Assembly: GCA_938085105.1 (NCBI GenBank)
Contig: CALKGK010000033.1
Location: forward strand, 1 to 53,075
Reading direction: 5' to 3'
DNA from: an uncultured Flavobacteriales bacterium
GTDB lineage: Bacteria; Bacteroidota; Bacteroidia; Flavobacteriales_D; Sanyastnellaceae
DNA length: 53,075 nucleotides
Part shown: piece by piece, positions 6,966 to 33,449 of the stretch
How the letters are laid out: each line of letters begins with the position of its first letter
How positions within the stretch are numbered: position 1 is the stretch's first letter
Program-made: the position numbers and the translations under genes
The notes under the pieces: model-generated
Database searches by the model: none
Told to the model about the DNA's origin: nothing
Seen by the model: the letters and a program-made list of their open reading frames with translations, nothing else

Positions 6966-6970
6966 TTCTG

Positions 6971-11705: not shown

Positions 11706-11716
11706 GTGTTTTTTTT

Positions 11717-11724: not shown

Positions 11725-11735
11725 AAGTAATCTTC

Positions 11736-16810: not shown

Positions 16811-17487
16811 TATTCTTCAAATTTATAGCCGACTCCCTTAACGGTTTTGAAAAAATTGTCGCCCAGTTTTTCACGTAATTTTCGAATGTGAACATCGATT
16901 GTTCGATCGCCCACAATCACGTCATTCCCCCAAACATTGCTCAAAATCGACTCACGAGTGAATACTTTTCCGGGCTGGGAGGTTAATAAAGATAGTAATT
17001 CAAATTCTTTTTTCGGCAAAGTCATCTCCTCGCCGTCTTTCAAAACAACGTAACGTTCTTTGTCAATAGAGATGCCCTTAAGCTGCTTGCCTGGACTTCC
17101 GGTTTCACCAGACTCTTTTCTACGAAGCAAGGCGCGGACACGGCTCACAAGTACTCTCGGTTTGATGGGTTTGGTGATGTAATCATCTGCCCCAGCGTCG
17201 AAACCTGCGATCTGACTGTAGTCTTCACCTCTTGCCGTTAGGAAGGCGATGATCACGTTTTCCAACTGCTTGTTTTCGCGAATTTGAATGCACGTTTCCA
17301 TGCCATCCATGCGTGGCATCATCACATCCAAGAGTATGAGGTCGGGCTGGAATTTCAAGGCCAAATCAATGGCTTCTTTCCCATTGTTGCACGATTGTAC
17401 CTCAAAGTTCTCCTTCTCCAAGTTGTATTTGATGAGGTCAAGAATGTCCTGCTCGTCATCTACCAATAATATTTTTTGCGTGCTCAT
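16810..17487 (-). CDS. Response regulator, OmpR/PhoB family
   Basis: 225 residues. Receiver domain 1-120 with acidic pocket DDEQD, phospho-acceptor Asp54 in LLDVMMPRMDG, and the conserved switch Thr/Lys (FLTARGED, ITKPIKPR). A winged-helix DNA-binding domain follows (about 135-225: LPKKEFELLSLL, VIVGDRTIDVHIRKLREKLG). First gene of the two-gene unit with the kinase. The promoter is one of the best in the window (TTTG, 17 bases, TAGCTTTG), about 20-50 bases before the ATG. Confidence 0.93.
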   Translation of the reverse strand: MSTQKILLVDDEQDILDLIKYNLEKENFEVQSCNNGKEAIDLALKFQPDLILLDVMMPRMDGMETCIQIRENKQLENVIIAFLTARGEDYSQIAGFDAGADDYITKPIKPRVLVSRVRALLRRKESGETGSPGKQLKGISIDKERYVVLKDGEEMTLPKKEFELLSLLTSQPGKVFTRESILSNVWGNDVIVGDRTIDVHIRKLREKLGDNFFKTVKGVGYKFEE

Positions 17488-17507
17488 GCTTCTCTTCTAT
17501 TGTGATG

Positions 17508-17536
17508 CAAAGCTACCCGCACCACTTTAAGCCAAA
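17508..17536 (-). promoter_or_regulatory. Promoter of the two-component operon
   Basis: TTTG (17536-17533) and TAGCTTTG (17515-17508) on the minus strand, 17 bases apart, match both elements of the Bacteroidota consensus. Predicted start near 17501, leader about 14 bases to ATG 17487. Confidence 0.55.
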
Positions 17537-17607
17537 GTTAAGTGTTTCTTAACAAGAGCGCCTATTTGTGTTTTAGGCCCTTTTGTTTGGTGAAGGTAGT
17601 TCAATAA

Positions 17608-17641
17608 AAAGAGCCAGACAACGATTGCTGCCTGGCTCTTT
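17608..17641 (-). terminator. Rho-independent terminator after the DUF4476 gene
   Basis: A perfect 10-base stem AAAGAGCCAG/CTGGCTCTTT with a 14-base loop, followed on the minus strand by a T-rich tract. It begins about 18 bases after the stop of the DUF4476 gene and separates it from the two-component promoter. Confidence 0.75.
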
Positions 17642-17659
17642 GATTCTGATTTATCTTCC

Positions 17660-18448
17660 CTATCGGGCCATGAAGTTTCTGAGTTCCCTACGATGACTGC
17701 TCCATTGCAACTCATCCACCACAACTTCATAGCGGTGGGGATCGAGTACATGTGGAAATGCAAACTTCGCAAGTTCAAGTTGATGTTCTCCAAAAGTGAA
17801 ACATCTTAATAGCTCACGCACTTGGTGTGAACTCAATTGTTTCTGACGAACAGCTTGTTTGGCAATGTCCATTCGGTCATCGCTCCACGTTTCGCGCTTG
17901 ATCCTTTGTAATAATTGTTCAAAGGCGCCGTGCGACATGGGAAAAATCCCGTTGTTTGAAGGGTATCCCATGTCTTGACAAACACTTGGGTTTTCATTGT
18001 AAGAAAGTCGGGTTCTATCACGATTTCCTTGAGGGTAGTTCTGGTATTGTGGTTGATGCATGGTTTGTCCGAGGGCAAGAACATCATCAATACACAATCC
18101 TCCATTTGGGTGAATGCTCGCAATGGTTTTCGCCCTATTTTCTAAGGTGATGAATCCATTGTATAGGAGTCGACCCCTACCTTGACGTGGTCCGCATGCT
18201 TGTTCGGTATATACTTTCAATCGATGCTGACCCGCTCTCAAAGAGGACAAGGTGATTTCGCAATCGCTGAAGTACTTTTGTCGGTTCAATTCCACCACCA
18301 CGTTTTGCTGATGTGGGGTTGAAAGTTGAAGAACAGCGCTTCCAGCGAAAACGGTAGATCCTGAAAGGAGGATCAGTAGGGTAGCAAATGTGATGCTACC
18401 GATGAACTTGGCGATGCTTTGATCGCCTTTCTTGAAGATCGTTTTCAT
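17660..18448 (-). CDS. DUF4476 domain secreted protein
   Basis: 262 residues. An N-terminal signal sequence (hydrophobic FIGSITFATLLILLSG, cleavage near VFA|GSA) places it outside the cytoplasm. The middle (about 35-95) is a beta-rich domain with paired Cys. The last 90 residues match DUF4476 (FEQLLQRIKRETWSDDRM, VRELLRCFTFGEHQLELAKF, RYEVVVDELQWSSHR), a helical domain frequent in Bacteroidota secreted proteins with no known activity. It has its own terminator, and a perfect inverted repeat lies in its upstream region, suggesting specific regulation. Confidence 0.8.
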   Translation of the reverse strand: MKTIFKKGDQSIAKFIGSITFATLLILLSGSTVFAGSAVLQLSTPHQQNVVVELNRQKYFSDCEITLSSLRAGQHRLKVYTEQACGPRQGRGRLLYNGFITLENRAKTIASIHPNGGLCIDDVLALGQTMHQPQYQNYPQGNRDRTRLSYNENPSVCQDMGYPSNNGIFPMSHGAFEQLLQRIKRETWSDDRMDIAKQAVRQKQLSSHQVRELLRCFTFGEHQLELAKFAFPHVLDPHRYEVVVDELQWSSHRRELRNFMAR

Positions 18449-18473
18449 AAGCGTGTTTTTAATGGGTTATCTT

Positions 18474-18509
18474 CTTCATCTATTCAAAGCTTGTGCCAAA
18501 TAGATGAAG
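18474..18509. repeat. Perfect 11-base inverted repeat upstream of the DUF4476 gene
   Basis: CTTCATCTATT (18474-18484) and AATAGATGAAG (18499-18509) are exact inverted copies with a 14-base spacer. They lie 26-61 bases before the DUF4476 start and 25 bases after the VOC gene stop. No T tract follows on either side, so it does not look like an intrinsic terminator. It may be an operator or a leader hairpin. Confidence 0.75.
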
Positions 18510-18533
18510 CCCAATAAAAACAGGCCTTTCAAC

Positions 18534-19601
18534 TCAATCTTTAATCCTTGAAAAGCGCAAAGCCTTAAGCATGAAGTTGGGCAGAGGCTTGTTAGGGTCA
18601 CGTTTTTCAACGTTCAAGAAAACACCCCACTTTTCGATGATAGGTACTTTGTAAACTTCGATCAACTCAATCCACGCTTTGTCGGGGTCGTCAATATAGG
18701 TGCAGTGAACCTTTGTATTCCCCATGTCCAAGGCGTCATTACTATCGCAGGTGAAGCCGAAACCTTGTTTCGCGAGTTCTTTGCCTAAAGCATCCATCCC
18801 TCTTACGTCCAAGCCCAAGTGAACAAAGCCACAATCGGCCCAAATTCGGTCTTTGAAAAGGTAACGTGGAGTGTAATTTTTGCGCTCAATAAGTTCGATG
18901 TAGGATGTGCCGGTAACGCGAGCAAAACCACCTCCGGGCTGCTTGGATTGTTTGAGCAATACGCGTCGGAAAGTGCCGTCTCCACCGGGAAGGTGAGCCC
19001 AGTCCTCAAAGGTGCCTGTTTCATCGTAAACCACCTCGTCATAACCCAAGATTCCTGAATAAAGGGTGCGCGCTTGATCCATGTTGCTCACTCCAATCGT
19101 GCAACCAGCCATTCCTCCAGATGGATGACCATTGTCGCTAAACCACTGCTCTCCTTGAACATACTGATAATGGTTGCCGTCGAGATCCTCAATACAGAAG
19201 GTATGTTCTCCATTGGGCAAGGTCTTGAGTTCACTCACCTGCTTCGCACCTTGAGTTAAGCAGTACTCTCGCATGGCTTTTGGATTCTTACATTTTACAA
19301 GTGCAATGTATATTCCGAGGTCTCCCAAAGCGGTTTCGAAAACAGCCTTTTGTGGTTCAAAAGTGGTTGGACGAATGACTTCCACAGCACATCCTCCTTG
19401 GAGGTTCATGATCATGGAGGCACGCTTGGTGATCACATCTCCATTGGTGTGATTGATCATAAGGTCGGCCGGGGCAACTGCATCAAAAAAGGGAATGTCA
19501 AGACCAAAGAATTTTCTAAAATACTTCAGAGATGCATCCATGTCGCTCACTGCAATACCAATGTGCTGAATTCCGTTTATCCTTGCGCTATTTGTACTCA
19601 T
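18534..19601 (-). CDS. VOC family protein with two glyoxalase/dioxygenase-type domains
   Basis: 355 residues from ATG 19601. Two VOC modules: residues about 7-135 (INGIQHIGIAVSDMDASL, FCIEDLDGNHYQYVQG) and 150-310 (MAGCTIGVSNMDQARTLY, GFVHLGLDVRGMDALGK). The overall arrangement resembles extradiol or hydroxyphenylpyruvate dioxygenases, but the C-terminal iron site of HPPD is not recognisable, so the reaction is left open. Each module offers possible metal ligands (His14, His257 and nearby Glu). Its ATG overlaps the TGA of the upstream acyltransferase by 4 bases (ATGA), so it is the last gene of pheT-acyltransferase-VOC. Confidence 0.78.
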   Translation of the reverse strand: MSTNSARINGIQHIGIAVSDMDASLKYFRKFFGLDIPFFDAVAPADLMINHTNGDVITKRASMIMNLQGGCAVEVIRPTTFEPQKAVFETALGDLGIYIALVKCKNPKAMREYCLTQGAKQVSELKTLPNGEHTFCIEDLDGNHYQYVQGEQWFSDNGHPSGGMAGCTIGVSNMDQARTLYSGILGYDEVVYDETGTFEDWAHLPGGDGTFRRVLLKQSKQPGGGFARVTGTSYIELIERKNYTPRYLFKDRIWADCGFVHLGLDVRGMDALGKELAKQGFGFTCDSNDALDMGNTKVHCTYIDDPDKAWIELIEVYKVPIIEKWGVFLNVEKRDPNKPLPNFMLKALRFSRIKD

Positions 19602-20869
19602 TTTGCTTTGATTAATGCCATTTTTGAACACCAAACTGACCATTTTTCGAACAACTCAGGCTCCATTTTACGCAAGCTGGATTCTTGCTTCCGGCGTTGA
19701 AGCGAGCGAACTTGATCGTAAAAGAATACGGCAAAAATACCCAAGACAAATGAACCGAGCAAGAAGCCCAGCATCCATTTCCATCCAAGCATAAGTCCGA
19801 TAAACAGGCCAATGACGCACGAGAAGAGGGGGATCAAGATCATCCCAAAGGTGAGCTTGAAGGTGCTACTAAAGTGCGGGTCTTTGATCTTACCTTTCAC
19901 AATTTGAGCGCTCACAAGTGCTGGAAGTCCGTGCAATAAACATCCCAACAATCCAATGGGGAAATAGGTGAAGAACATTAGTCCTTTCCAAACGGGTTCT
20001 TTTTGTGCCCAAGGAAAGTGCTCGAGGTCGACCCCTTTCGACTGGGCGAGGTTTTCAAGTGACTTGTACTCTTCGATGAGTTCGGGTTTTCCTCGTTTTG
20101 ACCAAGAACTTTGATAATTCAAAAGCGCATCAAGACTGGCTCCCTTCGCCTCAATAAAACGAGTGTAGGCGTTCAAAGGGGAGTAAGACTCTTTGTTGGG
20201 GAGATCGAGTACAACTTCTTGGAGACCTTGCTTTACCTCGTTCATCAAGGCATTGTGGCTGGCAGGAGAGTTCGGATGATTTTCCAACCATTTCTTGATG
20301 GTCACGGCTTCACCGATTCGAACAACACAGTCTTTTCGAAAGCCTTCATAATCTTCGTAATGCACTCCCATGGGAACAATATGGATGTCTTCCATGCTGG
20401 GGTCTTGCTCAATGGCTTTATAAACCAATCTTGCTAGACCTTTTTTGAGTGGACGAAGGGTCTTTTTATTTCCATGGTTTCCTTCTGGGAAGAGCGCCAT
20501 CACAGCCCCTTTTTTCAGTCGTTTAACGCAAAGCTCAAAGATGGCGTCGTTTTGTTTGGCCAGGTTGTCTACTTTGTCGTGCATTCGATACACGGGGAGC
20601 ATGTTTAGGCCCATCACGAATCGTTCGGCTAAACCGGGTTTAAAAACGTCAGCACGAGTTAGGAAATGGAGTTGACGAGGCGCACTCAAGCAGCACATCA
20701 AGGGGTCCATCAAGCCGTTTTGGTGATTGCTCACTACGATACAAGGTGTGCCTCGTTTTGGGAAATGATGCAGCCCTTCCACCTTATATTTTCGATAGAA
20801 GAACTTTGCGCTAATCCAAACAAAAGGGAAAAGCAAGCTATATAGTCCCGACCTTGATTTGACTTTCAT
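19598..20869 (-). CDS. PlsC-type lysophospholipid/glycerol-phosphate acyltransferase
   Basis: 423 residues. The acyltransferase domain covers about 30-235: motif I is VSNHQNGLMDPLM, with five residues between His and Asp rather than the common four, a form seen in GPAT-like members; motif III is LFPEGNHGNKKTLRPLK, with binding-site residues intact. The C-terminal part (about 295-390) has three hydrophobic stretches that should anchor it in the inner membrane, and the end is highly basic. It probably acylates a glycerol-phosphate or lyso-lipid. Starts 3 bases after pheT and overlaps the VOC gene, so it is co-transcribed with both. Confidence 0.85.
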   Translation of the reverse strand: MKVKSRSGLYSLLFPFVWISAKFFYRKYKVEGLHHFPKRGTPCIVVSNHQNGLMDPLMCCLSAPRQLHFLTRADVFKPGLAERFVMGLNMLPVYRMHDKVDNLAKQNDAIFELCVKRLKKGAVMALFPEGNHGNKKTLRPLKKGLARLVYKAIEQDPSMEDIHIVPMGVHYEDYEGFRKDCVVRIGEAVTIKKWLENHPNSPASHNALMNEVKQGLQEVVLDLPNKESYSPLNAYTRFIEAKGASLDALLNYQSSWSKRGKPELIEEYKSLENLAQSKGVDLEHFPWAQKEPVWKGLMFFTYFPIGLLGCLLHGLPALVSAQIVKGKIKDPHFSSTFKLTFGMILIPLFSCVIGLFIGLMLGWKWMLGFLLGSFVLGIFAVFFYDQVRSLQRRKQESSLRKMEPELFEKWSVWCSKMALIKAK

Positions 20870-20872
20870 GGA

Positions 20873-23311
20873 TTAAGATCTAAGCACGGCTCCGTGTTCT
20901 TTTTCAATGGCCGTGCGGATGCGTTCAACACTCTTGTCAATGATGGCATCGTTGAGTGTTTTTTCTTCGTCTTGAAGTCGCAAGCTGATGGCATAGGATT
21001 TTTTTCCTGCCTCCAGTTTATCGCCTTCGTAAACATCAAAAAGTCCTACTTTTTTCAATAGTTTTCTTTCGGCTCTGAAGGCAGTGTTCTGCAAATCGGC
21101 AAAGCTTACGTTTTGATCGAGCAAGAAGGAAAGGTCTCTTTTTACTCCAGGGAATTTCATGATTTCACTCGACTTCAAATGCTTGTTGTTGATCATCGAA
21201 AAGAGAAGTTCCCAGTTCAAATTGGCCCACCATACTTCATTTTGAATGCCGAAGTGTTTTCTCATTGATTTACTCACCTTACCGAAGGTTCCAACAGTCT
21301 TCTTACGGAATTGCAGATTCAAACCTTCGCTACAGAAAGGAACTTCTCCCGACTTCTCTTTGATTTGATCTTTCCACCCAAGCACATCAAAAATGGCCAT
21401 CACTTCCGCTTTAAGGTGCTCAAAACCGCTGCTGTCTTGAGTGTTGTTCCAATTGCTCTGACGCTGCTGGCCGCTCATAAAGATGGATAGCTGTTCTTGC
21501 TCGTCATACCCCGATTCATACTTGTGGTACACTCGCCCAAATTCATAGGCAAAGATGTCCGGATTCTGATGGTTTTGGTTTCGTTGAATCGCTTCCATTC
21601 CTTGGAAGAAAAGGGTTTGACGCATGATTTCGAGGTCGGAACTCAAAGGATTGAGCATTTTCACGACGCTTGCTGCACTTTTTTCCGGGTCAGGCATCAG
21701 AGCGATGTAGGCATCAGAGCTCAGGGAATTGGACATCATCTCCATGGCTCCTCGGGCGCTAAGGATGGAGGATAGACGCTCTTTGTATTTTTCTCGGTTG
21801 GGCTTTTGCTCGTAAGAGAGGGTGGAAGTGAGCCGCTCAGGCAAAGGCACTTCATTGAATCCATAAATGCGAAGAATTTCTTCAAGCACATCGGCTTCTC
21901 GAGTAACGTCACCGCGATACAAAGGAGCTTCTACAAGAAAAGTATCTCCGTTCTTCTGGAGAATAGGCATGTCCAAAGATTGCAAAATGGATTCAACATC
22001 CGCCATTGGGATGTCCATGCCAATCATGCGATCCATGCGTTGCTTGTTCACTTCAATTTGTGCGGTTTTGGGCAAATGTGCTTCGTCGATTGCACTTACC
22101 ATCTCGTGTTGAGCTTCTGCACCAGCAAGTTCACAAATCAAAGCCGCCGCTCGGAACAAAGCTTTTTCAGTGAGTTTTGGATCCACTCCACGTTCAAAAC
22201 GGAAGGAGGAATCGGTATTCAATGCGTGTCTTCTTGCGGTTTTTCGAACGCTCACAGGATTGAAATATGCGCTTTCGAGAAAGATGTTTTTGCTTCTTTC
22301 GCTCACGCCAGAGTCCATTCCACCGAAAACTCCAGCCATACAGAGTCCGCCATTATCGTCGCAAACCATGAGGTCTTCAGAAGAAAGTTTCCGTTCAGTT
22401 TCATCCAAAGTGATGAACTTGCTGTCTTGAGCCAAATGACCTACATGGATATTACCTTGAACTTTATCTGCGTCGAAAGCGTGCAGTGGTTGACCAATAT
22501 CATGCATCACGTAATTGGTGATGTCTACAATGTTGTTGATGGGTTTTAGACCAATGCTATTAAGGGCTTGTTTGAGCCAATCTGGACTTTCACTAACCTG
22601 GACATTACTCAGATAAAGTCCTAAGTATTTCGGGCAATGAGCAGGGTCGTCAGAGGAAACTTGAATGGGCGAAGTTTGATGTCCAAGACTCATTTCCGCA
22701 TCGATGTGCTTCAGTTGACTTGGTTTTTGCTGATGCGATAGGGCTGCATGAAGATCTCGAGCTACACCAAAATGCGACATCGCATCCGTTCTATTTGGGG
22801 TTAAGCCGATTTCAATGCAGGTGTCAGAATCGAGGTTGAAGTAGCTCGCAACGCTGGTTCCTGCAATGGCAGATGGGTCGAGCACCATGATACCATCGTG
22901 CCCTTTACCCAAACCAATTTCATCCTCGGCACAAATCATTCCCATGGAAACCTCGCCACGAATTTTTCCTTTTTTGATTTTGAATGCTTCTCCTTCAAGG
23001 GGGTGAAGTTCTGTTCCCACGGTGGCAACAATAACTTTTTGTCCGGCAGCAACATTCGGAGCTCCGCAAACAATTTGAAGGGCTTCTTCTCCTCCTATGT
23101 TTACTTCACAAACCTTTAAGCGATCGGCGTTCTCGTGTTGTACACAGGTGAGGACTTCACCTACGAGCAAACCTTTGAATCCCCCCTTGACTCTTTCTAC
23201 TTCTTCAAGGCCTTCTACTTCTAAACCGGTATCGGTAAGAATAGGTGCCATTTCTTCTGCACTGAGTGGAGTATCAATCCATTTTTTTAACCAAGAGTAG
23301 GAAATCTTCAT
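20873..23311 (-). CDS. pheT: Phenylalanine--tRNA ligase beta subunit
   Basis: Forms the alpha2beta2 enzyme with PheS that charges tRNA-Phe. 812 residues, normal for the family. Domains in order: N-terminal MKISYSWLKKWIDTPLS, an EMAP/tRNA-binding OB fold (about 40-150, LLVGEVLTCVQHENADRLKVC), B3/B4 editing region (about 210-390, RRHALNTDSSFRFERG), B5 domain (about 405-475), the catalytic-like core, and a C-terminal anticodon-binding FDX-ACB domain (about 715-810, FPGVKRDLSFLLDQNVSFADL). The partner pheS is on the opposite strand about 5 kb away rather than adjacent. First gene of a three-gene unit. Confidence 0.97.
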   Translation of the reverse strand: MKISYSWLKKWIDTPLSAEEMAPILTDTGLEVEGLEEVERVKGGFKGLLVGEVLTCVQHENADRLKVCEVNIGGEEALQIVCGAPNVAAGQKVIVATVGTELHPLEGEAFKIKKGKIRGEVSMGMICAEDEIGLGKGHDGIMVLDPSAIAGTSVASYFNLDSDTCIEIGLTPNRTDAMSHFGVARDLHAALSHQQKPSQLKHIDAEMSLGHQTSPIQVSSDDPAHCPKYLGLYLSNVQVSESPDWLKQALNSIGLKPINNIVDITNYVMHDIGQPLHAFDADKVQGNIHVGHLAQDSKFITLDETERKLSSEDLMVCDDNGGLCMAGVFGGMDSGVSERSKNIFLESAYFNPVSVRKTARRHALNTDSSFRFERGVDPKLTEKALFRAAALICELAGAEAQHEMVSAIDEAHLPKTAQIEVNKQRMDRMIGMDIPMADVESILQSLDMPILQKNGDTFLVEAPLYRGDVTREADVLEEILRIYGFNEVPLPERLTSTLSYEQKPNREKYKERLSSILSARGAMEMMSNSLSSDAYIALMPDPEKSAASVVKMLNPLSSDLEIMRQTLFFQGMEAIQRNQNHQNPDIFAYEFGRVYHKYESGYDEQEQLSIFMSGQQRQSNWNNTQDSSGFEHLKAEVMAIFDVLGWKDQIKEKSGEVPFCSEGLNLQFRKKTVGTFGKVSKSMRKHFGIQNEVWWANLNWELLFSMINNKHLKSSEIMKFPGVKRDLSFLLDQNVSFADLQNTAFRAERKLLKKVGLFDVYEGDKLEAGKKSYAISLRLQDEEKTLNDAIIDKSVERIRTAIEKEHGAVLRS

Positions 23312-23330
23312 TGCTGCAAATTTGAACCGT

Positions 23331-23338
23331 CAAAGGTA
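23331..23338 (-). promoter_or_regulatory. -7 element before pheT
   Basis: TACCTTTG on the minus strand, exact to TAnnTTTG, 20 bases upstream of the pheT ATG. No convincing TTG at the expected -33 position. The remaining bases of the 229-base gap to the stress-protein gene show no gene or terminator. Confidence 0.35.
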
Positions 23339-23540
23339 AGGAATTTACTGCGTTTTTGGCTTGTGGATTCGGTCTTGGATTTGACTTGCCTAGGGTTGCC
23401 ATTTCTAATCAATCGGCAGCGTGTAATTTGTGTTTTGTTAGCTAAAGAACTGATGCAAGTCATTTTAATTGCTACTTGAATTTTAGACCTTCGTTGAAAG
23501 CCTTTACTTCAAAGGGCACATTAACCATAAAATTGATCCC

Positions 23541-24407
23541 ATGAAAAGAATATTGGTTCCTACAGATTTTTCAGAATGTTCATATTATGCTGCGGAAGTG
23601 GCTGCTCAGTTGGCAAAGAAAACGGGCGCTCGCGTCTTTCTTCTGCACGCGCTAGAAGTCCCGCAATATTCGAGCAATGAGCCTTACCCCACCATGAGCA
23701 ACACTGCAGAGGGTATTTTTATGATGAAATTGGTAAAGCAGGAGTACGAGAAGTTGATTTCTCAAGATTTCTTCAAAGGTGTTGACGTTGCTGAGGTGGT
23801 TCAATGGGAGAATGTCTATGATACCATCACTAAACAAGCGGAAGAGCACGATATCGATTTGATCGTTATGGGTTCTCACGGAGCCAAAGGAGCCAAAGAG
23901 TTCTTCGTAGGTTCTAACGCAGAGAAAATTGTGAGAACAGCAGCTTGTCCTGTGATCACGGTGAAAGAGCGCAGCGAAAACTTCGCTCCAAAAACCTTGG
24001 TTTACGCTTCGAGTTTTTACGGCGAAACAGTGGAAGCTTTTGGAGAGATTAAAGAGTTAATAGACCTTTTCAACCCCGAGGTGCATTTGCTGAAAGTCAT
24101 CACTCCTGGAAACTTTGAAGCGACGGATTACAGTGAGCGCTTGATGAAAGAATTTGCTGAGCACTACGATTTGAAGAACTACAGCATGAATATTTATAAT
24201 GAGATGACTGTGGAACGAGGCATTCATGAGTTTGCAAATTCGAGAAAGGCCGATATTCTAGCGATGGAAACGCACGGAAGAAGAGGGTTAGCACATTTTT
24301 TCAGACAAAGTTTGGCCGAGGATGTAGCGAATCATACACGCTTGCCACTGATTACCATGAGAATACCGGAAGAAGAGCAGAACAATGGTGGGATTTTCCC
24401 AGATTAA
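23541..24407 (+). CDS. Universal stress protein, tandem Usp domains
   Basis: 288 residues made of two Usp domains (1-142 and 150-285). The first has the ATP-binding motif in complete G-2x-G-9x-GS form: GSHGAKGAKEFFVGS (about 111-125), followed by CPVITVKE. In the second the matching stretch ETHGRRGLAHFFRQS lacks the first and third Gly, so it probably does not bind ATP in the usual way. Members help survival under starvation, acid or oxygen stress by mostly unknown means. Single gene with its own upstream region. Confidence 0.92.
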   Translation: MKRILVPTDFSECSYYAAEVAAQLAKKTGARVFLLHALEVPQYSSNEPYPTMSNTAEGIFMMKLVKQEYEKLISQDFFKGVDVAEVVQWENVYDTITKQAEEHDIDLIVMGSHGAKGAKEFFVGSNAEKIVRTAACPVITVKERSENFAPKTLVYASSFYGETVEAFGEIKELIDLFNPEVHLLKVITPGNFEATDYSERLMKEFAEHYDLKNYSMNIYNEMTVERGIHEFANSRKADILAMETHGRRGLAHFFRQSLAEDVANHTRLPLITMRIPEEEQNNGGIFPD

Positions 24408-24466
24408 TTCGAAAGCTCCCAATGAAAATCTAGTCATCAAGGGAAAGTAGAATTGAAAATAGCCCT

Positions 24467-24474
24467 TATATTTG
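24467..24474 (+). promoter_or_regulatory. -7 element immediately before tRNA-Pro
   Basis: TATATTTG is an exact TAnnTTTG match ending 6 bases before the first base of the tRNA. At the usual spacing transcription would begin within a few bases of the mature 5' end. A TTG at 24453-24455 is only 11 bases away, too close for a normal -33. Confidence 0.4.
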
Positions 24475-24480
24475 CCCCAT

Positions 24481-24555
24481 CGGGATGTAGCTCAGCCAGG
24501 TTAGAGTACACGTCTGGGGGGCGTGGGGCCGGAAGTTCGAATCTTCTCATCCCGA
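24481..24555 (+). tRNA. tRNA-Pro (anticodon GGG)
   Basis: 75 bases fold as a full cloverleaf. Acceptor stem CGGGATG/CATCCCG (7 pairs, C1-G72 as usual for bacterial tRNA-Pro), D arm GCTC/GAGT, anticodon stem CACGT/GCGTG with loop CTGGGGG giving anticodon GGG at 24516-24518, and T arm GGAAG/CTTCT with TTCGAAT loop. Discriminator base is A and CCA is not encoded. A -7-like element lies 6 bases upstream and an intrinsic terminator 18 bases downstream, so it is a single-gene unit. Confidence 0.95.
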
Positions 24556-24572
24556 CAAAAGAAAACCATACT

Positions 24573-24603
24573 AAAAAGCACTTTCTCCAGAAGGTGCTTT
24601 TTT
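24573..24603 (+). terminator. Rho-independent terminator after tRNA-Pro
   Basis: Stem AAAAAGCACTTTC (24573-24585) with GAAGGTGCTTTTT (24590-24602), one T-G pair, tight four-base loop TCCA, followed by a T-rich run. Confidence 0.8.
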
Positions 24604-24711
24604 CTTTTCACAACCCAAAGAACATTTGTATCTCGTCGAAGTGGTTCACATTTGGTTCTTGATTTGTGTGCTGACCGTGAAAATGATCACCTTTTAAAGA
24701 ATTAATCCATC

Positions 24712-25152
24712 GTGAAAAGAACGCCCTCCTTCTTATCCATACGATCTCTTAGCATCCTTTTTTTCGGCCTGTTCTAAAGACTAAGGCTGCACAAATCCGG
24801 CAGCATCCAATTACGATGATGAGGCCATTGAGGATAATGGCTCATGTAAGTTTGAAGGCGAAATGGTTTTTTGGTTCAGTCAGGAAACAAGCGCGGATCT
24901 CATCACAGAAGGTACCGAAACCCTTTATTTCTTTTTGGACGACCAAGAGGTTGGAGAGGCGCCAACTTCACTTTTTTGGGAAGAAACACCCAATTGTGGA
25001 GCTGCGGTTCTTAAAGTGTGAGTGGCGATTTGGGAAGTGGAACCAGCAGAAACTTTACCTATCGCGTGATTGATGAGGATGGCACCGATCGTTGGACTAG
25101 AATTGTTGCTTTTAGCGTAAATTCCTGTTCCATAGTGGAGTTGACGCTTTAA
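24712..25152 (+). pseudogene. Decayed lipoprotein gene, frameshifted
   Basis: No single frame codes a protein, but three consecutive frame segments read as one lipoprotein-like product. GTG 24712 opens MKRTPSFLSIRSLSILFFGL, a signal sequence, and stops near 24775. From 24785 the +1 frame reads GCTNPAASNYDDEAIEDNGS and then KFEGEMVFWFSQETSADL on to AVLKV with a stop at 25019-25021. The first frame then resumes at 25018 with VSGDLGSGTSRNFTYRVIDE and ends at 25152 (SIVELTL). The GCTNPAASNYDDxAxxDNGSC element is a common module after the signal peptide of Bacteroidota secreted and lipid-anchored proteins. At least two frame changes are needed, so it is called a pseudogene; sequencing error is the alternative. 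Nothing else is seen in 24604-24711 or 25153-25307. Confidence 0.65.
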
Positions 25153-25307
25153 TAAACATTGTTCAGCGAGCAGTAGTGCTTCTTGGGTGTTGTCTGTTTT
25201 CAATCGACTCGATACTTACTAAAGATGTAATTTAGTTCTGGAAGAAAACATGCGGGATACACACTAATTTTTGTACTTTTCCCACTCATATTACTATCGC
25301 GCAAAAA

Positions 25308-25715
25308 ATGGACGTTCAATACCGTATTCTTTTGGTTGATGATGATGAAGCTTCTTTGTATTTGCATCGCTTCTTTCTTCAGCGCCATCCAGCGTCCATC
25401 GATGTTAGCTCAGAGCGAGATGGACATGCTGCTCTCAAGACGATCAAAGAATTGTTAGAGCAAGATCAATTGCCAGACGCACTTCTCCTAGATCTTAATA
25501 TGCCAAAACTCAATGGCTGGGAATTATTGGAAGCGCTAGAAGAGTTAAAAGACCCACGAATAGCAGGCATCCACATTGTGCTCATTTCAACAACCGTCAA
25601 CCCAGACGATCATCAAAGAGCCAAAATGCATCCACTTGTTCAAGGGTTTATCCCTAAGCCACTGAAAAAAGATGAGGTGAATGTGTTGATTGATCAACTC
25701 GGACAGAGCGTTTAA
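25308..25715 (+). CDS. Single-domain response regulator (CheY-like)
   Basis: 135 residues forming only a receiver domain: acidic pocket DDDEA (11-15), phospho-acceptor Asp62 in LLDLNMPKLNG, switch Ser/Thr in VLISTTVN and Lys in FIPKPLKK. No output domain, so it should act by protein contact, for example in a phosphorelay. No kinase is adjacent; the nearest are the TPR kinase at 29188 and the PhoR-like kinase at 15767. The N-terminus MDVQYRILLVDDDEAS starts as expected. Converges with the TonB-like gene. Confidence 0.9.
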   Translation: MDVQYRILLVDDDEASLYLHRFFLQRHPASIDVSSERDGHAALKTIKELLEQDQLPDALLLDLNMPKLNGWELLEALEELKDPRIAGIHIVLISTTVNPDDHQRAKMHPLVQGFIPKPLKKDEVNVLIDQLGQSV

Positions 25716-25739
25716 CGCATTGACGTTTTTGACGATATT

Positions 25740-26471
25740 TTACTGGAACCCCATTCCAACCATAATGCTTGGAGACCCTTCAAGAAATTGAAAAGTAATG
25801 GGTAGTATGAATGTGGAACTCACAGAAATTTCGCCGAGTTTCGCAGGCGTCCAAGCAGGCATCTCTTGCACAGCTTTTATTGCTTCCTGATCCAAAAAGA
25901 AATGCGCACTTTCAAGAAGAGAGATGTCCAGAATTTCCCCCGATTCATCAATGTTGAATGCCAATTTGACCGTGCCTTCGATCTGCTTGATTTGTGCGGG
26001 CTCGGGGTAAGAAACCTTGTCTGAAATAAAGTCAAGAAGCGCGCCATAGCCTCCTGGGAAATGAGCAGCAATGTGTCCCTTGCTAGAAGTCTGCATGGTC
26101 TCTTTGGGATAGATGCGATCGTTTTTAGGAGTGCCGTCCGACTCAAAGCGTTTCCAAACGCCTACTTTTCGTCCGTTTTTGAACATGCCTTCCGACTCCA
26201 AATTTCCATTCCAATAGAAGAATTGAAAGAATCCATCTTCACTTTCGAGGTCCTCGTCCAAATACTCGCCAATCATTTTGGTCTTTCCAGATAAAAAGAA
26301 AACTTCAGTCTTATATTTGCCGTTGTCTAAAGCGAGTGTCTCACGATAATACTGAGCCTGGCTGATCACCGATGTGGTGTCGAGTTGAGGACTCAACAGC
26401 TCTCGGCCATTTTGACTGAGGACAGTCGTAGCACTCGTAATAGAAAATAGAAATAAAACTGTTTTCTTCAA
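25740..26471 (-). CDS. TonB C-terminal domain protein with MORN-like repeats
   Basis: 243 residues if translation begins at TTG 26471, which puts LKKTVLFLFSITSATTVLS|Q at the N-terminus as a signal sequence or anchor; the alternative TTG 26501 adds ten residues and would lie only about 5 bases after the predicted transcript start. There is no ATG. Middle part (about 65-130) has YwqK/MORN-type turns (FYWNGNLESEGMFKNGRKVG). The C-terminal 80 residues are a TonB C-domain (EGTVKLAFNIDESGEILDIS, LDQEAIKAVQEMPAWTPAK). There is no Pro-rich linker and the anchor looks cleavable, so it may not energise receptors in the classic way. Confidence 0.78.
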   Translation of the reverse strand: MKKTVLFLFSITSATTVLSQNGRELLSPQLDTTSVISQAQYYRETLALDNGKYKTEVFFLSGKTKMIGEYLDEDLESEDGFFQFFYWNGNLESEGMFKNGRKVGVWKRFESDGTPKNDRIYPKETMQTSSKGHIAAHFPGGYGALLDFISDKVSYPEPAQIKQIEGTVKLAFNIDESGEILDISLLESAHFFLDQEAIKAVQEMPAWTPAKLGEISVSSTFILPITFQFLEGSPSIMVGMGFQ

Positions 26472-26512
26472 GATGAGGAAGGTATAGGCTAGTGGAGCCA
26501 AGGTTAATGAAT

Positions 26513-26544
26513 CAAAATTACCTCATTGATTTCGTTTTTTTCAA
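26513..26544 (-). promoter_or_regulatory. Promoter of the TonB-like gene
   Basis: TTG (26544-26542) and TAATTTTG (26520-26513) on the minus strand with a 21-base spacer; the -7 element is an exact match. Predicted start near 26507, which favours the TTG 26471 start with a leader of about 35 bases. Confidence 0.45.
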
Positions 26545-26587
26545 CCAAGGCGGGGCACTTATTAACAAAACAATGTAAAGTAGTAGG

Positions 26588-26923
26588 ATGGATTTTGAAT
26601 TTGAAAAAGAGTGGCAAGAAGCTTTAAAGAAAGTTGAAAAAACCTTTGGTGAAGGCTTGGACTTGCAGGCAGTACTTTTCTTGATTGGCGTTCAAGAGCT
26701 GGGTCAGGGTTACCGAAATTTCAAGAAGGATGAGAAAGTGGAGCTGCTGCACATTGCTATCTGTACCTTACTTCAAGATTATGGGTATTACGAGTTTATT
26801 GGGAGGGATGAAGACGATTGGCCGCACTTCAAGCGAGTAAAAGAGCTACCTCAGTTACCTCCAAATGAACAAGATTTAATGATGAGAAAAGCAGTTGTGA
26901 ATTACGTTGCGGGAGCCTTTTAA
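26588..26923 (+). CDS. Conserved hypothetical protein, 111 residues
   Basis: No family recognised with confidence. The protein is acidic and probably all-helical and cytoplasmic, with no signal or membrane segment. Visible features are a helix DFEFEKEWQEALKKVEKTFG, a hydrophobic core LDLQAVLFLIGVQELGQGY, and an aromatic acidic stretch DYGYYEFIGRDEDDWPHF near residue 75. Coding is supported by a clean ATG start, length, and the absence of an alternative frame. It stands between divergent tonB-like and convergent lipoprotein genes, so it seems to be transcribed alone. Confidence 0.75.
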   Translation: MDFEFEKEWQEALKKVEKTFGEGLDLQAVLFLIGVQELGQGYRNFKKDEKVELLHIAICTLLQDYGYYEFIGRDEDDWPHFKRVKELPQLPPNEQDLMMRKAVVNYVAGAF

Positions 26924-26935
26924 TGAGGTTCTCGT

Positions 26936-27322
26936 CTATTCGATGGTTACCGTTTCTTCGTTGGTGGTTTCTTCTTCAACTTTAATAATTCCAAAACCTT
27001 CCAAGCTTCCTTTCGTGGCTGTAATGTCTAGAACAACAAACCCTGCTTGTCCCTGTTGGTAAAAATCGCTGAAGTTGAACGATACTTTTCCACTACCGTT
27101 GGTTACTTGAGTAGTGTCAAAACGAGGCTCAGGAACAAAATCACCGTCAGTTGTACCTTCCCCTTTCAAACGAACCGTTGCACCAGGAACCGGAGCTCCA
27201 AAAGCATTCAATACCTGAACTGTTGCAATGGTTTCTTCTTCCTTCTTGCATGAGTTCAAACCTGCAATCATCAAAACGGCCATTGACAATGCAAAACCAA
27301 GCTTTAAACCTTTTCTTTTCAT
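26936..27322 (-). CDS. Small lipoprotein with Ig/carboxypeptidase-regulatory-like fold
   Basis: 128 residues. The signal peptide ends in a lipobox (MIAGLNSC, Cys25), followed by KKEEE. The mature part reads TVQVLNAFGAPVPGATVRLKG, with a later turn DTTQVTNGSGKVSFNF, the pattern of a carboxypeptidase-regulatory or Ig-like beta-sandwich. Probably anchored in the outer membrane. The acidic ending EEETTNEETVTIE is unusual. Role unknown. Divergent from the cyclophilin lipoprotein with 68 bases between starts. Confidence 0.8.
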   Translation of the reverse strand: MKRKGLKLGFALSMAVLMIAGLNSCKKEEETIATVQVLNAFGAPVPGATVRLKGEGTTDGDFVPEPRFDTTQVTNGSGKVSFNFSDFYQQGQAGFVVLDITATKGSLEGFGIIKVEEETTNEETVTIE

Positions 27323-27390
27323 GGTGTACTGAATTTCTTAATTTCGTGGTCCCAAGTAACGGGTAAATACAAAGGAACAAAAAAAAATTG

Positions 27391-28167
27391 ATGAATAAAT
27401 ATCTTCTCTTAATTGCCGGCGCTGCGAGCTTCATGCTCCTAGCTAGCGCGAGCTCATGTAATAATGACGTTGAAAACGCGCCAGAGGTTGCAGTGGAAAA
27501 AGTGGAACAAGAAGTTCAGGAAGCTTTGCCAGAAGCAGATCCGACTCCGCTAGGTCAAAAGGCAAAGATCAGTACCAAGTTTGGAGACATCACGGTGCTC
27601 TTGTACGATGCAACACCTAAACACCGAGATAACTTCATAAAGTTGGCCAAAGAAGGGTACTACGATGGGCTACTGTTTCACCGCGTAATGAAGAATTTCA
27701 TGATTCAAGGTGGTGACCCAGAGTCGAAAGATGCAACTGCCGGACAAATGCTCGGGGGTGGTGGACCAGGGTATACTGTTCCTGCTGAGTTTGTAGATAC
27801 CTTATTGCATTTGAAGGGAGCGCTTGCGGCAGCAAGACAGCCCGATCAGGTGAACCCAGAAAAAGCTTCGTCAGGGAGTCAGTATTACATTGTACACGGA
27901 CGAACTTTCCCGGTGAATCAGTTGCTTCAAATGGAGCAAAAAAGAAACATTGGTGTGGATAGCGCAAATCAATTTCATTACACTCCTCAACAACTTGAGG
28001 CTTACACTACAATTGGTGGCGCTCCATTCTTGGACGGCGAGTACACGGTGTTTGGTGAGGTTCTGGAAGGGTTGAACATTGTTGATTCAATCGCTGCTGT
28101 TAGAACACAAAGAGATCGTCCTTTGGAGGACATTGAGATGACTGTGACTTTGATTGAAGAGAACTAA
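27391..28167 (+). CDS. Peptidyl-prolyl isomerase, cyclophilin-type lipoprotein
   Basis: 258 residues from ATG 27391. Signal peptide with Cys near residue 23 (ASASSCNND) indicates a lipoprotein. An acidic linker precedes a cyclophilin domain (about 55-250): KFGDITVLLYDATPKHRDNF, the catalytic-type FHRVMKNFMIQGGDP, and the final VFGEVLEGLNIVDSI. An insertion of about 40 residues (QLLQMEQKRNIGVDSANQ region) sits before the last strands, as in other Bacteroidota periplasmic cyclophilins. It probably helps fold secreted or outer-membrane proteins. pheS starts after one base, so the two are co-transcribed. Confidence 0.9.
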   Translation: MNKYLLLIAGAASFMLLASASSCNNDVENAPEVAVEKVEQEVQEALPEADPTPLGQKAKISTKFGDITVLLYDATPKHRDNFIKLAKEGYYDGLLFHRVMKNFMIQGGDPESKDATAGQMLGGGGPGYTVPAEFVDTLLHLKGALAAARQPDQVNPEKASSGSQYYIVHGRTFPVNQLLQMEQKRNIGVDSANQFHYTPQQLEAYTTIGGAPFLDGEYTVFGEVLEGLNIVDSIAAVRTQRDRPLEDIEMTVTLIEEN

Positions 28168-28168
28168 G

Positions 28169-29191
28169 ATGATTGATAAAATTGCGGCTTTAAAGGCCTC
28201 CGTAGAGAGCAAAAGCATCTCCTCAGCAGAAGAGTTGGAAGCACTTAGAATAGAATTTTTGGGTAGACAAGGTGCACTGAAAGACCTCAGAGAGGAGTTC
28301 AAAGCAGTTCCTGGTGAGGAAAAGCGTTCAGTAGGAATGGCCCTCAACGAGCTCAAGTCTGCAATTGAGGAAAAACTTCAAACAGCAAAAGACGCTCTTG
28401 AAAATGCCGAAGATCAAGATGGAGCGAAGCAAGATCTCACCCGCCCCGATGGTGGTGTTCCGCTCGGTTCTCGACATCCCATTTCAGTGGTGAGAAGAGA
28501 CATTCTCGATATTTTCAATCGCATCGGTTTTACTGTGGCTGAAGGTCCAGAAATTGAAGATGATTGGCACGTGTTCTCAGGTTTGAACTTTCCGCCAGAG
28601 CACCCCGCCCGCGACATGCAGGATACTTTCTTCGTTGAAAAGGATCCCGATCTAATGCTGCGAACCCACACTTCTTCTGTTCAGGTGAGAGCCATGGAAA
28701 CCCAAGAGCCGCCGTTGAGAATTGTGATGCCTGGTCGCGTTTTTAGAAATGAGGCCATTTCTGCACGTGCTCACTGCATCTTCCATCAGATTGAAGGACT
28801 ATATATCGATAAGGATGTTTCTTTTGCCGATTTGAAACAAACCCTGCTCTATTTTGCAAAGGAGTTTTTTGGGGAGGACGCGAAAATCCGTCTTCGTCCG
28901 AGCTACTTCCCGTTTACCGAGCCGAGTGCGGAGGTTGATGTTTACTGGGGCTTGAAAACTGATGTTGATTACCGCATCACGAAAGGAACAGGGTGGTTAG
29001 AGATCTTGGGCTGTGGAATGGTTGATCCTAATGTTTTGAAAGCTTCTGGAATTGATCCTGAGGTTTATTCGGGTTACGCCTTCGGTATGGGAATTGAAAG
29101 AATTGCGATGCTGCGACACCAGATTGGTGACCTCCGTCACTTTTTCGAGAATGATGCTCGCTTCCTCAAACAATTTAGTAGCGCTTTTTAG
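28169..29191 (+). CDS. pheS: Phenylalanine--tRNA ligase alpha subunit
   Basis: 340 residues from ATG 28169, one base after the cyclophilin stop; the in-frame TTG at 28154 would overlap that gene. N-terminal coiled-coil (about 1-85), then the class II catalytic core: motif 1 region HPISVVRRDILDIFNRIGF, motif 2 FRNEAISARAHCIFHQIEG, and motif 3 GYAFGMGIERIAMLRH. Works with PheT, encoded elsewhere in this window on the opposite strand. Its last 4 bases overlap the end of the convergent kinase gene. Confidence 0.97.
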   Translation: MIDKIAALKASVESKSISSAEELEALRIEFLGRQGALKDLREEFKAVPGEEKRSVGMALNELKSAIEEKLQTAKDALENAEDQDGAKQDLTRPDGGVPLGSRHPISVVRRDILDIFNRIGFTVAEGPEIEDDWHVFSGLNFPPEHPARDMQDTFFVEKDPDLMLRTHTSSVQVRAMETQEPPLRIVMPGRVFRNEAISARAHCIFHQIEGLYIDKDVSFADLKQTLLYFAKEFFGEDAKIRLRPSYFPFTEPSAEVDVYWGLKTDVDYRITKGTGWLEILGCGMVDPNVLKASGIDPEVYSGYAFGMGIERIAMLRHQIGDLRHFFENDARFLKQFSSAF

Positions 29192-31260
29192 TCTTTCGTC
29201 TCTTCCAGATTGGGCAAGCGAAAGATGAGAGTAGCTCCTTTGTTGGGGTAGCTTTCGAGGTTGATCTTGCCTCGAAGTTTTTCACTTGCAATTTTAACGA
29301 GGTAAAGTCCCAAACCAGCACCTTTTGATTTGTTGGTTCCCTTTACAAACATGTCGAAAACACGATCGCGAACTTTTTCCGGGATGCCCAAACCGTTGTC
29401 CTCAATTTTAAGGGTTGCACCTTGCTCATCGGTGTAGATGCTGACTTTACAGAAATCTTCAGGTGTTCCTTTGCGATAATCGATGGCGTTGGCAATGGTT
29501 CGGTTGAGGATGACTTTGAGCAGTTTAAAATCGCTGTAGAAAGGCACCAACTCCTGGATTTCCCAAGTGAGTTGTAGTTCATCCCTTCCCATCAATTCTT
29601 TGTGTTCAAGATCAAATTTGAGCTTATTGAAATCGATTTGCTCAATTTTGACATCCACTTTTTTGTAGTCTACAGCTCGCGATAAGTTCACTAAAATCCC
29701 ATCCATTTGTTCTGAGCAAGAATTGATCAAACCGAGGTACTTTTTGCTCACTGCGTTATGGTCTTCTTTGTCCAAAAGCCGCAATAAAGATTTGATGCTG
29801 GTAAGCGGTGTTCGAAGGTCATGTGAAGACTTATAGATGTAGGTGTTGAGCTCTTTGTTGGCTTTTCGAAGTTCCCGCGTACGCTTGTACACTTTCCATT
29901 CAAGCACTTTACTCAACTTTTGTTTTTGCGAGAACTCACGGTAAAGCAGTCCAATGATGATGACGAAGCACACAATGCCGATCACAATGATGTTCCAAAA
30001 TTGTCGATCGCTGCTGTTTTCGTCTTTGGTGCGGGTGTCCGAACTTTCTCTCAAGTACGTTTCTGTGCTGATTTTCTGCTCATTCAAGGATCGTTTCAAT
30101 GCCGAAATTTGATGCTGTGCATTGATTTGAGCTAGGCTGTCGGCTTTTTTTAAGGCAAGCAAGGCTCCGGGAAGATTCCCTTTCTTCTCCAAAAATTCGA
30201 GCTCATACCTCAAACTTTTCTCCATGAGTTTACTGAGTCCATGATGCTTGGCGTAAGTAAAAGCATCATAATATGCGAGTTCAGCGGCTCCCATTTCGCC
30301 AGATTTTTCTAGAAGTTTCGCCAGATCAATTTGAAGGTGAGCGATTTGGTCAACTTGTCCTGTGGGCATGTGTTCAAGGGCCTTTCTTTGCATTCGAACG
30401 GCATTGCGCCACTCTTTCAATGCTGCGTAGGAACGGGATAAATTGGTGTAAGCGAGGGCTGCACCTTGTTGGTCTTTGTTCTTTAGGTTGAGTTCAGCAG
30501 CTTCATTCAAATGCGCAATCGCTGCAGAATGGTTATCACGCATACCTTCAATGAGGGCCATTTCTCCAAGATTGTTGGCTAAACTGCTGGTGAAGTTCAG
30601 TTGACGATAGATGTTATTGGCTTCTTCAAAGTGAACAATGGAAGAGTCAAAAGCAGCTTCGTGATAGTAGATTTTCCCAAGTTCATCGTGGCAAAGTGCG
30701 CACTGAACAAGATCGTCTTTCCCCTTGCTTAAAACGGTTTCAAACAAACTGATGGCTTCTTCATGCTGCCTGAGTTGGGAGTGTACAATACCGGTTTTGA
30801 ATTGAGCTTTTCTGACTTCCTTCTCCTGATCGCTTTCTAAATAGAGCTTCAAAGCTTCTTCATACTTCTGTAAGGCGATGTCCAGGCTTTTCTCTTCAAA
30901 GTACAACTCGCCAAGCTCAAAATAAGCACGTGCTTCTTCGTCGTGGGTACTGGCTTTGTCCAGTCCTTGTGTAAAGGCTTGAATGGCCTTGATATTCTGG
31001 TCCAAGTATCGCAACGATTTCCCACGGTAGAAAAAGAGTTGATATTGGTCTTGGTGATCAAGTTGGTCCAGAAAACTCAACGCCGAATCCGAATAAAGTA
31101 AACTCCTTTTGTGCTTCCCTTGGTTGCTGGCTTTTTTGCTCTCTTGCAACCATGTTTCCAGGTATGCTTCTTTAAGCGCGTTTTGAGACGTGCAAATGCT
31201 TGCTCCGGTCAGAAGCAATAAGATCGTCAAGAAGATGTGCAATGGGGTGAGCTTACACAT
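29188..31260 (-). CDS. TPR-containing sensor histidine kinase
   Basis: 690 residues from ATG 31260, which places a good signal sequence at the N-terminus (MCKLTPLHIFLTILLLLTG, ending CTS|QNAL). A GTG at 31308 with 4-base overlap of the upstream stop would add 16 charged residues before it; a near-consensus TACCTTTA at 31281-31288 also favours 31260. Residues about 30-370 hold about seven TPR repeats in the periplasm (RAYFELGELYFEEKSLDIAL, SLANNLGEMALIEG). One membrane helix follows (FWNIIVIGIVCFVIIIGLL), a coiled coil, HisKA with the His near 480 in SSHDLRTPLTSIK, and HATPase_c with EDNGLGIP and GAGLGLYLVKI. No regulator is adjacent. Confidence 0.88.
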   Translation of the reverse strand: MCKLTPLHIFLTILLLLTGASICTSQNALKEAYLETWLQESKKASNQGKHKRSLLYSDSALSFLDQLDHQDQYQLFFYRGKSLRYLDQNIKAIQAFTQGLDKASTHDEEARAYFELGELYFEEKSLDIALQKYEEALKLYLESDQEKEVRKAQFKTGIVHSQLRQHEEAISLFETVLSKGKDDLVQCALCHDELGKIYYHEAAFDSSIVHFEEANNIYRQLNFTSSLANNLGEMALIEGMRDNHSAAIAHLNEAAELNLKNKDQQGAALAYTNLSRSYAALKEWRNAVRMQRKALEHMPTGQVDQIAHLQIDLAKLLEKSGEMGAAELAYYDAFTYAKHHGLSKLMEKSLRYELEFLEKKGNLPGALLALKKADSLAQINAQHQISALKRSLNEQKISTETYLRESSDTRTKDENSSDRQFWNIIVIGIVCFVIIIGLLYREFSQKQKLSKVLEWKVYKRTRELRKANKELNTYIYKSSHDLRTPLTSIKSLLRLLDKEDHNAVSKKYLGLINSCSEQMDGILVNLSRAVDYKKVDVKIEQIDFNKLKFDLEHKELMGRDELQLTWEIQELVPFYSDFKLLKVILNRTIANAIDYRKGTPEDFCKVSIYTDEQGATLKIEDNGLGIPEKVRDRVFDMFVKGTNKSKGAGLGLYLVKIASEKLRGKINLESYPNKGATLIFRLPNLEETKD

Positions 31261-31304
31261 TTGGGGAGTTTCGTTTTCGTTAAAGGTAAATGAGGTGTTT
31301 CTCC

Positions 31305-32348
31305 TCACCGTTGGTGGTTAAATTCATCCAACTCTTCAAGGCATGACTTCAAAAGCTGGATACTGTGGGTGATGTCGTTTTTATTCGCCATTTCAATGAC
31401 GCTATGAATGTGTCTTGTTGGAATACTGACAGCTCCAGCAATGCTGCCGCCAGGAGTCATTTGTTGAATGCCTGAAGTATCCGTGCCGCCAGCAGTGAGG
31501 ATTTCTGCTTGCCAAGGAATTTGATGCTTCTCTGCACGTTCTTTCATGAAGCGCACCATGCGTGGGTCACAGATGGTTCGAGCATCCATAATTTTAATGG
31601 CTGTTCCATCACCCAAGCTTGTTACACGTTCGTGTTTTGATGCCCCTGGAGTGTCGAAGGCAATGGTGGTGTCCAAACCAAATCCATAATCGGGTTGAAT
31701 TTTCATGCTGCTCACATTCGCCCCACGGATTCCAACTTCTTCCTGCACGGTGAACACAGCATAGGTGTCGCAGGCCGGAGTTTTAAGCTGGCGAAGGGTT
31801 TCGATAAGAATGTAAACAGAGATGCGGTTGTCAATGGACTTGCAATTCACGCAATCGCCCATTTCAATGAGTCCGCGTTCCCGAGTGATTGGGTCTCCAA
31901 TTTGAATGTACTTTTCCACTTCTTCTTTGCCCATTCCAAAGTCGATGAAATAGTCGCTAATCTTGGGGGCTTTGTTCCGTTCTTCGGGCTTCATGATGTG
32001 TATGGGCTTGCTTCCCATGACACCAATGAGGTCTTTTTTCCCGTGAACAATAACACGCTGAGCAGTAAGCGTTTTTGGGTCGAAACCGCCTAAGGTGTGA
32101 AAACGGGCAAACCCTTGATCATCGATGTGAGTCACAATGAAACCAATTTCGTCCATGTGGGCTCCAATCATGGCTTTCTTGGAGCTCTTTCCCTTCTTCA
32201 ATGCGATCACATTACCGAGGTTGTCCACCTCAATGTGATCCACCAAGCCTTCTATTTCTCGCAATACGACTTTCCTGATGGGTTCCTCAAAACCAGGAGC
32301 GCCAGGGGTTTCACATATTTCTCTAAGAAGTGGGATATTCAAGTCCAT
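31305..32348 (-). CDS. M42 family metallopeptidase (glutamyl aminopeptidase/FrvX type)
   Basis: 347 residues, cytoplasmic, forming a large oligomer in known members. Visible ligands and catalytic residues: IGAHMDEIGFIV (first His, Asp), CKSIDNRIS (bridging Asp), VQEEVGIRGA (catalytic Glu pair), FGLDTTIAFD, and the final His in RHIHSVIEMA. The internal PDZ-like domain is about 70-165. It trims peptides from the N-terminus. 102 bases separate it from the upstream M28 gene; this gap holds two small inverted repeats and no clear promoter. Confidence 0.92.
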   Translation of the reverse strand: MDLNIPLLREICETPGAPGFEEPIRKVVLREIEGLVDHIEVDNLGNVIALKKGKSSKKAMIGAHMDEIGFIVTHIDDQGFARFHTLGGFDPKTLTAQRVIVHGKKDLIGVMGSKPIHIMKPEERNKAPKISDYFIDFGMGKEEVEKYIQIGDPITRERGLIEMGDCVNCKSIDNRISVYILIETLRQLKTPACDTYAVFTVQEEVGIRGANVSSMKIQPDYGFGLDTTIAFDTPGASKHERVTSLGDGTAIKIMDARTICDPRMVRFMKERAEKHQIPWQAEILTAGGTDTSGIQQMTPGGSIAGAVSIPTRHIHSVIEMANKNDITHSIQLLKSCLEELDEFNHQR

Positions 32349-32450: not shown

Positions 32451-33449
32451 TTATTCTTGGTAAATGACTTCCAACACGGTTTGTCCTACGGCTTTCAACA
32501 CAGTGCTGTCTATGACATCCATGTTGTCAGCGTGGGTGTGATGGAAGTATCCGTATCCCATGGCACGCGGACCGCTAACATGATAGTGAACAATGTTTGC
32601 CGAAGGTATGCCTGCTCCCATGTTGACGAAGTAGTTGTCGTCAATCGTTTGTCCGGTGATTTCATCCACAAAAAGGGTGTCATAACCCAAGTTCTGAGCG
32701 GTTTTCCAAACTTTATCGACGATGCCTGGAGCCAGAGCCACAGAGGTTCCTTCTCGGTTGAATACAGCATCTTTGGCTCCAACCATATCGAGTAGAATTC
32801 CAAATTTCGCGCGGTAGTTGGGTTTGTGTCGATTTCGTGCCCAATACTGAGATCCTAAGCACCAATCGCTGGGGTCGCCATCCGATGGCAGCCATTCGGG
32901 CTTGCCGTAATCTTCGGCATCAAATAAGATGATGTCAATCCCATAATCAGGCTGCTTTTGCTGAATTTGTCGAGCAACTTCCAATAGAACCCCCACACCA
33001 GATCCACCGTCATTTGCGCCGTCGATGGGTTCTTTCATGCGCAAGGTGTCTTTGTCTGCAAACGGACGAGTATCCCAGTGTGCATAAAGCAAAATTCGTC
33101 GTTTGTTGGTGGCTTGAAATTGCGCTATGATGTTTTTCATGGGCAAGTAAGTCCCGTCATAGGCCAGTACTTGTGCTTCTTGAGTAATCACATCAGCCCC
33201 GTAGTTTTCTAACTTTTCAACTAGCCAGTTTCCACAAGCCTTGTGTCCTTCGCTTCCAGGCACACGCGGACCAAAATCCACTTGTTTTTGGATGAAATCG
33301 TAAGCGTTTTGAGCGTTAAAGTCTGGAGTTGATACGCGCGGTTTTTGTGTCTGTTTTTCACCCTTTACTGGGGGAGCAACTTCATCATCACCACAGGCAC
33401 TCAGAAAGAGTCCCGAAAGCACAAATAAGAAAAGTAGTTTATCCTTCAT
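32451..33449 (-). CDS. M28 family lipoprotein, probable glutaminyl-peptide cyclotransferase
   Basis: 332 residues from ATG 33449, which begins [19 protein letters not shown], a signal peptide with lipobox LSAC. The M28 core reads [42 protein letters not shown] and [11 protein letters not shown]. These stretches resemble the type II glutaminyl cyclases described from Porphyromonas and relatives more than aminopeptidases, so N-terminal pyroglutamate formation on exported proteins is the favoured role; M28 peptidase activity is the alternative. Zinc ligands would be Asp of DGANDGG, Glu of AEDYG and the His of [11 protein letters not shown]. The start overlaps the cysS stop by 11 bases. Confidence 0.82.

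Follow-up and report, generated by a model that had tools for sequence, protein, structure and literature searches.

The window, that is, the whole stretch of 53,075 nucleotides from an uncultured Flavobacteriales bacterium analyzed here, carries a broken gene between a universal stress protein gene (23541-24407, PF00582) and a response regulator gene (25308-25715, PF00072). The left neighbor of the broken gene is a tRNA-Pro gene with the anticodon GGG (24481-24556, plus strand), and the corresponding site of the sister genome has the same tRNA gene. It is followed on its 3' side by a terminator-like hairpin (24573-24602, plus strand), and a similar sequence follows tRNA-Pro in the sister genome as well. 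Downstream of the hairpin, the plus strand of positions 24712-25152 holds a decayed lipoprotein gene that runs from a GTG start to a TAA stop in three pieces occupying three reading frames.

Piece 1 (24712-24757, plus strand) is probably the start of a signal peptide, judging from its position, start codon and hydrophobicity. It ends at the first lesion, a frame change that we place at a run of seven T (24758-24764); mononucleotide runs of at least 7 number 21 across the window. When read onward from the GTG at 24712, translation stops after 21 codons, at 24775-24777, before the lipobox, so that no lipoprotein is expected. Piece 2 (24761-25018, plus strand) contains the lipobox FSAC, a GCTNPAAS...NGSC element and the first half of the domain. 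It reads FSACSKD, then meets an in-frame TAA between the lipobox and the GC element (24782-24784, the second lesion) and continues with GCTNPAASNYDD... up to 25018. This frame offers no ATG, GTG or TTG codon from the preceding stop up to the lipobox, so that a start would need another frame. A second frame change at about 25009-25018, the third lesion, leads to piece 3 (25015-25152, plus strand), which encodes the second half of the domain and ends with the stop at 25150-25152. The two frame changes and the in-frame TAA thus disable the reading frame. An earlier note on this DNA had proposed a single lipoprotein read by changing frame twice, after 24775 and at about 25018. The single gene and the second frame change hold, but the first change belongs at the run of T, since the first frame simply runs into its stop at 24775-24777, and the TAA at 24782-24784, in the frame of the lipobox and the GCTNPAAS element, was missed, which makes three lesions rather than two.

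The unity of the gene is apparent from a profile built from eight intact relatives only, with the window sequence left out. Piece 2 (24785-25018) matches positions 26-99 of this profile with an E-value of 8e-27 and piece 3 (25015-25149) matches positions 103-146 with an E-value of 1.2e-11, so that two pieces that are out of frame with each other nevertheless fall on adjoining positions and together cover most of the profile length of 147. The remaining nine plus-strand frames listed for 24600-25200 scored 0.74 or worse. A family profile that includes the window piece among its rows runs through the TAA, matching 24758-25009 with one TAA. Piece 1 by itself gave no significant match (E = 4.3), being too short for support of its own, and its coding bias is negative in all three frames. 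By contrast, gene-like codon usage is seen for pieces 2 and 3 in the family frame only (0.17 and 0.19 per codon, respectively, with negative values in the other frames); the reference was a set of 29 local genes scoring 0.14-0.32 per codon, which also trained the score.

Of 114 genomes of the same bacterial family, 53 gave a match at an E-value of 1e-8 or better; in many of these, the match is to some other protein and confined to its lipobox and GC element. The alignment comprised 32 near full-length relatives, namely 26 with the GC element, 5 without it and one order-level relative; these are not independent, as some are near-identical, and one (L104) runs off its contig. An additional uninterrupted relative from genome G055, outside the 32, served as a row in alignments A1 and A2, in the eight-relative profile and in the tree. 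Over the aligned part, 31 of the 32 relatives are uninterrupted. The exception (L109, G080:C44:934-1353), from a genome that is 69% complete, has an in-frame TAA in the signal-peptide region. The genome of the window bacterium itself encodes an uninterrupted paralogue (G000:C78:27506-27949), which is 44% identical to the middle piece of the broken gene, the highest identity of the window copy to any relative. Another locus of this genome (L131, G000:C42:9500-11200) contains a frame of 181 residues that matches the profile mainly via the lipobox and the GC element.

The lipobox Cys, the GC...DGSC element and the C-terminal domain of about 100 residues are all present in the window copy, in the same order as in the family, the difference being that the relatives are intact and the window copy is spread over broken frames. 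The parent gene would have encoded a secreted Flavobacteriales lipoprotein of about 147 residues, composed of a signal peptide, a lipidated Cys, the GC...DGSC element and the domain of about 100 residues, and the intact family protein is predicted from its sequence to be exported and lipidated at the Cys. In five of the 32 relatives (L110-L114, genus g4) the lipobox and C-terminal domain are kept and the GC...DGSC element is absent, which gives the element the look of a module that can be removed. The family members tested against Pfam and NCBIfam stayed below the curated cut-off of every model, sequence searches of Pfam, NCBIfam and PDB yielded neither a family nor a structure for the domain, and the 78-residue piece of the window alone had no match among PDB sequences. 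The A2 profile matched residues 319-353 of macrophage perforin-2 (MPEG1; PDB 6u23/6u2j) weakly through the GC...DGSC element (E = 0.029), and the aligned MPEG1 letters, GCTD...NF...ANTDDGSC, are much like the bacterial element. A literature search found, by title, no paper on the DDGSC element. When the neighbors of nine homologous loci (L132, L088, L090, L091, L092, L094, L097, L100 and L107) were compared by eye, none was common to them, except between L090 and L091, which belong to one genus.

The relatives also inform on the individual lesions. In the 27 relatives with the element, the residue just before its GC varies (E in 12, P in 6, D in 4, R in 3, T in 1 and K in 1) and is never a stop, as it is at the second lesion of the window copy. 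At the third lesion, the conserved Cys and Leu codons lie 32 nt apart, compared with 11 codons in 31 of the 32 relatives and 12 in one. The earlier note had also suggested that two single-base losses at the first junction would restore the reading LFLKTKGC. This join can be rejected, because in the relatives the lipobox and the GC element share one frame, with the lipobox Cys a few residues before the GC of the element.

A single genome of the same genus, the metagenome-assembled sister genome G001, was compared with the window. It retains the stress protein gene, tRNA-Pro and the response regulator gene in this order, and blastn aligned it to window positions 24-11800, 11592-17941, 18081-24603 and 25322-32225. 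The intervening stretch without alignment (24604-25321) measures 718 bp here and 65 bp there, and the distance from the end of tRNA-Pro to the start of the response regulator is 751 bp in the window versus 101 bp in G001. Thus, about 650 bp following the tRNA-Pro terminator, including the decayed gene, are absent from the matching site in G001, with colinear DNA on both sides. No match at 1e-8 was found in G001; six weaker matches were obtained, and the two listed among them fall within frames of 997 and 1234 aa, with an alignment limited to the first 25-26 query residues. The lipoprotein gene most likely belongs to a short stretch of variable DNA bounded by the tRNA-Pro terminator and the response regulator gene. 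Judging from these two genomes, the segment may have been gained here or lost from G001.

The earlier note had taken the position of the broken gene next to a tRNA gene as a possible sign of an edge of variable DNA. The variable segment bears this out to a limited extent, but a role of the tRNA finds no support. The 3' end of tRNA-Pro (22 nt, with up to 3 mismatches allowed) occurs once in the window, and the sole direct repeat listed for 24400-25400 is an 11-nt match in two copies, 91% alike, which is not convincing as an att site; neither a duplicated tRNA 3' end nor a flanking att repeat, which would mark a tRNA-borne integrative element, was thus found. Moreover, no integrase or transposase family was detected among the 10 genes of 18534-29188. 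We therefore rejected tRNA-targeted integration. When 27 homologous loci were scanned, some of them truncated by contig ends, a tRNA gene was found within about 1.5 kb at four (L090, L091, L100 and L102), and two of these four, from one genus, adjoin tRNA-Thr(CGT).

The accuracy of the assembly was assessed from the other genes of the window, where tiling gave 45 ORFs with a minimum length of 90 codons. One of the 45 (24753-25073) lies across the broken gene in another frame and is without a relative at this site. All the remaining 44 align in one frame to G001, over 50,916 nt in total, and only two of them cover less than 90% of their stop-to-stop frame (0.81 and 0.86), the latter because of a contig end in G001. 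The stop codon in G001 lies at the same end within 5 residues wherever it is readable (27 of the 35 ORFs tested, one being cut by the end of the stretch). Stops occur in 9 of the 44 G001 copies. In 7 of these they fall no further than residue 38 of the stop-to-stop frame, upstream of the probable start or close to it. In the other two, both on contig C75 of G001, the stop is an internal TAG, at about 2246 (L138) and about 12018 (L137), whereas the corresponding window genes (33439-34938 and 44343-45218) have open frames. The former window gene we take to encode cysteinyl-tRNA synthetase, which makes an assembly error likely for the TAG of its G001 copy.

Several readings of the broken frame can be weighed against these data. 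That unrelated short ORFs happen to lie here, as the open frames of 44-85 aa at this place might suggest, has a negligible probability; the adjoining profile positions and the E-values of pieces 2 and 3 refute it for these two pieces, and for piece 1 it is possible. A more substantial concern is that the breaks are sequencing or assembly errors and that the organism itself has an intact gene. The assembly is a draft of 99 contigs, the first lesion falls on a homopolymer, and internal TAG codons in 2 of the 44 genes compared in the sister genome indicate that single stops do occur in such drafts, which weighs slightly against a pseudogene and in favor of error. In addition, one study (PMC3711429) treats similarity-validated frameshifts confined to one genome as expected sequencing errors rather than true indels, an expectation that would extend to the frame changes found here. 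However, three lesions in 441 bp, when the other coding sequence compared from this genome is unbroken over 50,916 nt, make general sequencing noise unlikely and favor true decay: for three evenly spread errors, the chance that two would join the first within 441 nt is about (441/51357) squared, or 7e-5 (1.2e-4 when computed on the smaller ORF set). We consequently regard error as an unlikely explanation.

Expression of the gene by recoding, or phase variation at the run of seven T, appears very improbable. The run is a plausible slippage site, and runs of at least 7 within 75 nt before the lipobox Cys are present in 7 of the 32 relatives too, but slippage there would mend neither the TAA nor the second frame change. 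Neither the position nor the direction of a break is conserved as in programmed frameshifting: 31 of the 32 relatives have a single continuous frame, the remaining one is interrupted by one stop within the signal peptide, and none of those aligned shows the breaks of the window copy. Even more remote is the scenario in which the run of T acts as a phase switch and read-through of the stop combined with a second slippage would yield a rare full-length lipoprotein, a bet-hedging surface protein. The best account of 24712-25152, and in our view the most likely one, is a genuine pseudogene that two frame changes and a nonsense codon have inactivated, and we infer that the three lesions are present in the living organism. 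Decay of the gene, as surmised in the earlier note, is thus upheld by the lesions and by the uninterrupted relatives.

In this pseudogene, 6 of 29 near-invariant columns depart from the family, compared with 0 to 7 in the 25 core relatives; being within the range of the relatives, these departures give no independent sign of long decay. Its GC content is 0.449 versus 0.447 for the window, and when read in the family frames it resembles local genes in codon usage. Nothing marks the decayed gene as foreign or long dead. In the tree, the window row is unplaced (end branch of 1.06, in no starred group, with a long-branch warning), and the nearest paths lead to G014a (1.57) and to its own paralogue (1.62), so that the tree speaks neither for nor against a recent duplication of the C78 copy. 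A search of the same genome with the 131 bases of 24599-24729 found no second copy, the other 10 matches having E-values of 0.67 or worse.

Frame changes plus a stop, conserved flanks and intact relatives elsewhere are features that the window gene shares with bacterial pseudogenes as described in Liu et al. 2004 (PMC522871) and in Kuo and Ochman 2010 (PMC2916853). It differs in carrying three lesions in one short gene: the latter study gives a single lesion in 346 of 378 Salmonella pseudogenes, and only 32 had been inactivated by more than one change. In this lineage, a gene located within the segment of about 650 bp between the tRNA-Pro terminator and the response regulator gene would have lost its function, and judging from the sequence, the window copy should yield no product larger than the 21-codon peptide. 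The uninterrupted C78 paralogue could make this loss tolerable. Positions 24712-25152 should accordingly be annotated as one pseudogene, not as short ORFs. The case represents ordinary lineage-specific gene decay and points to a small lipoprotein family whose presence varies from one related species to another.
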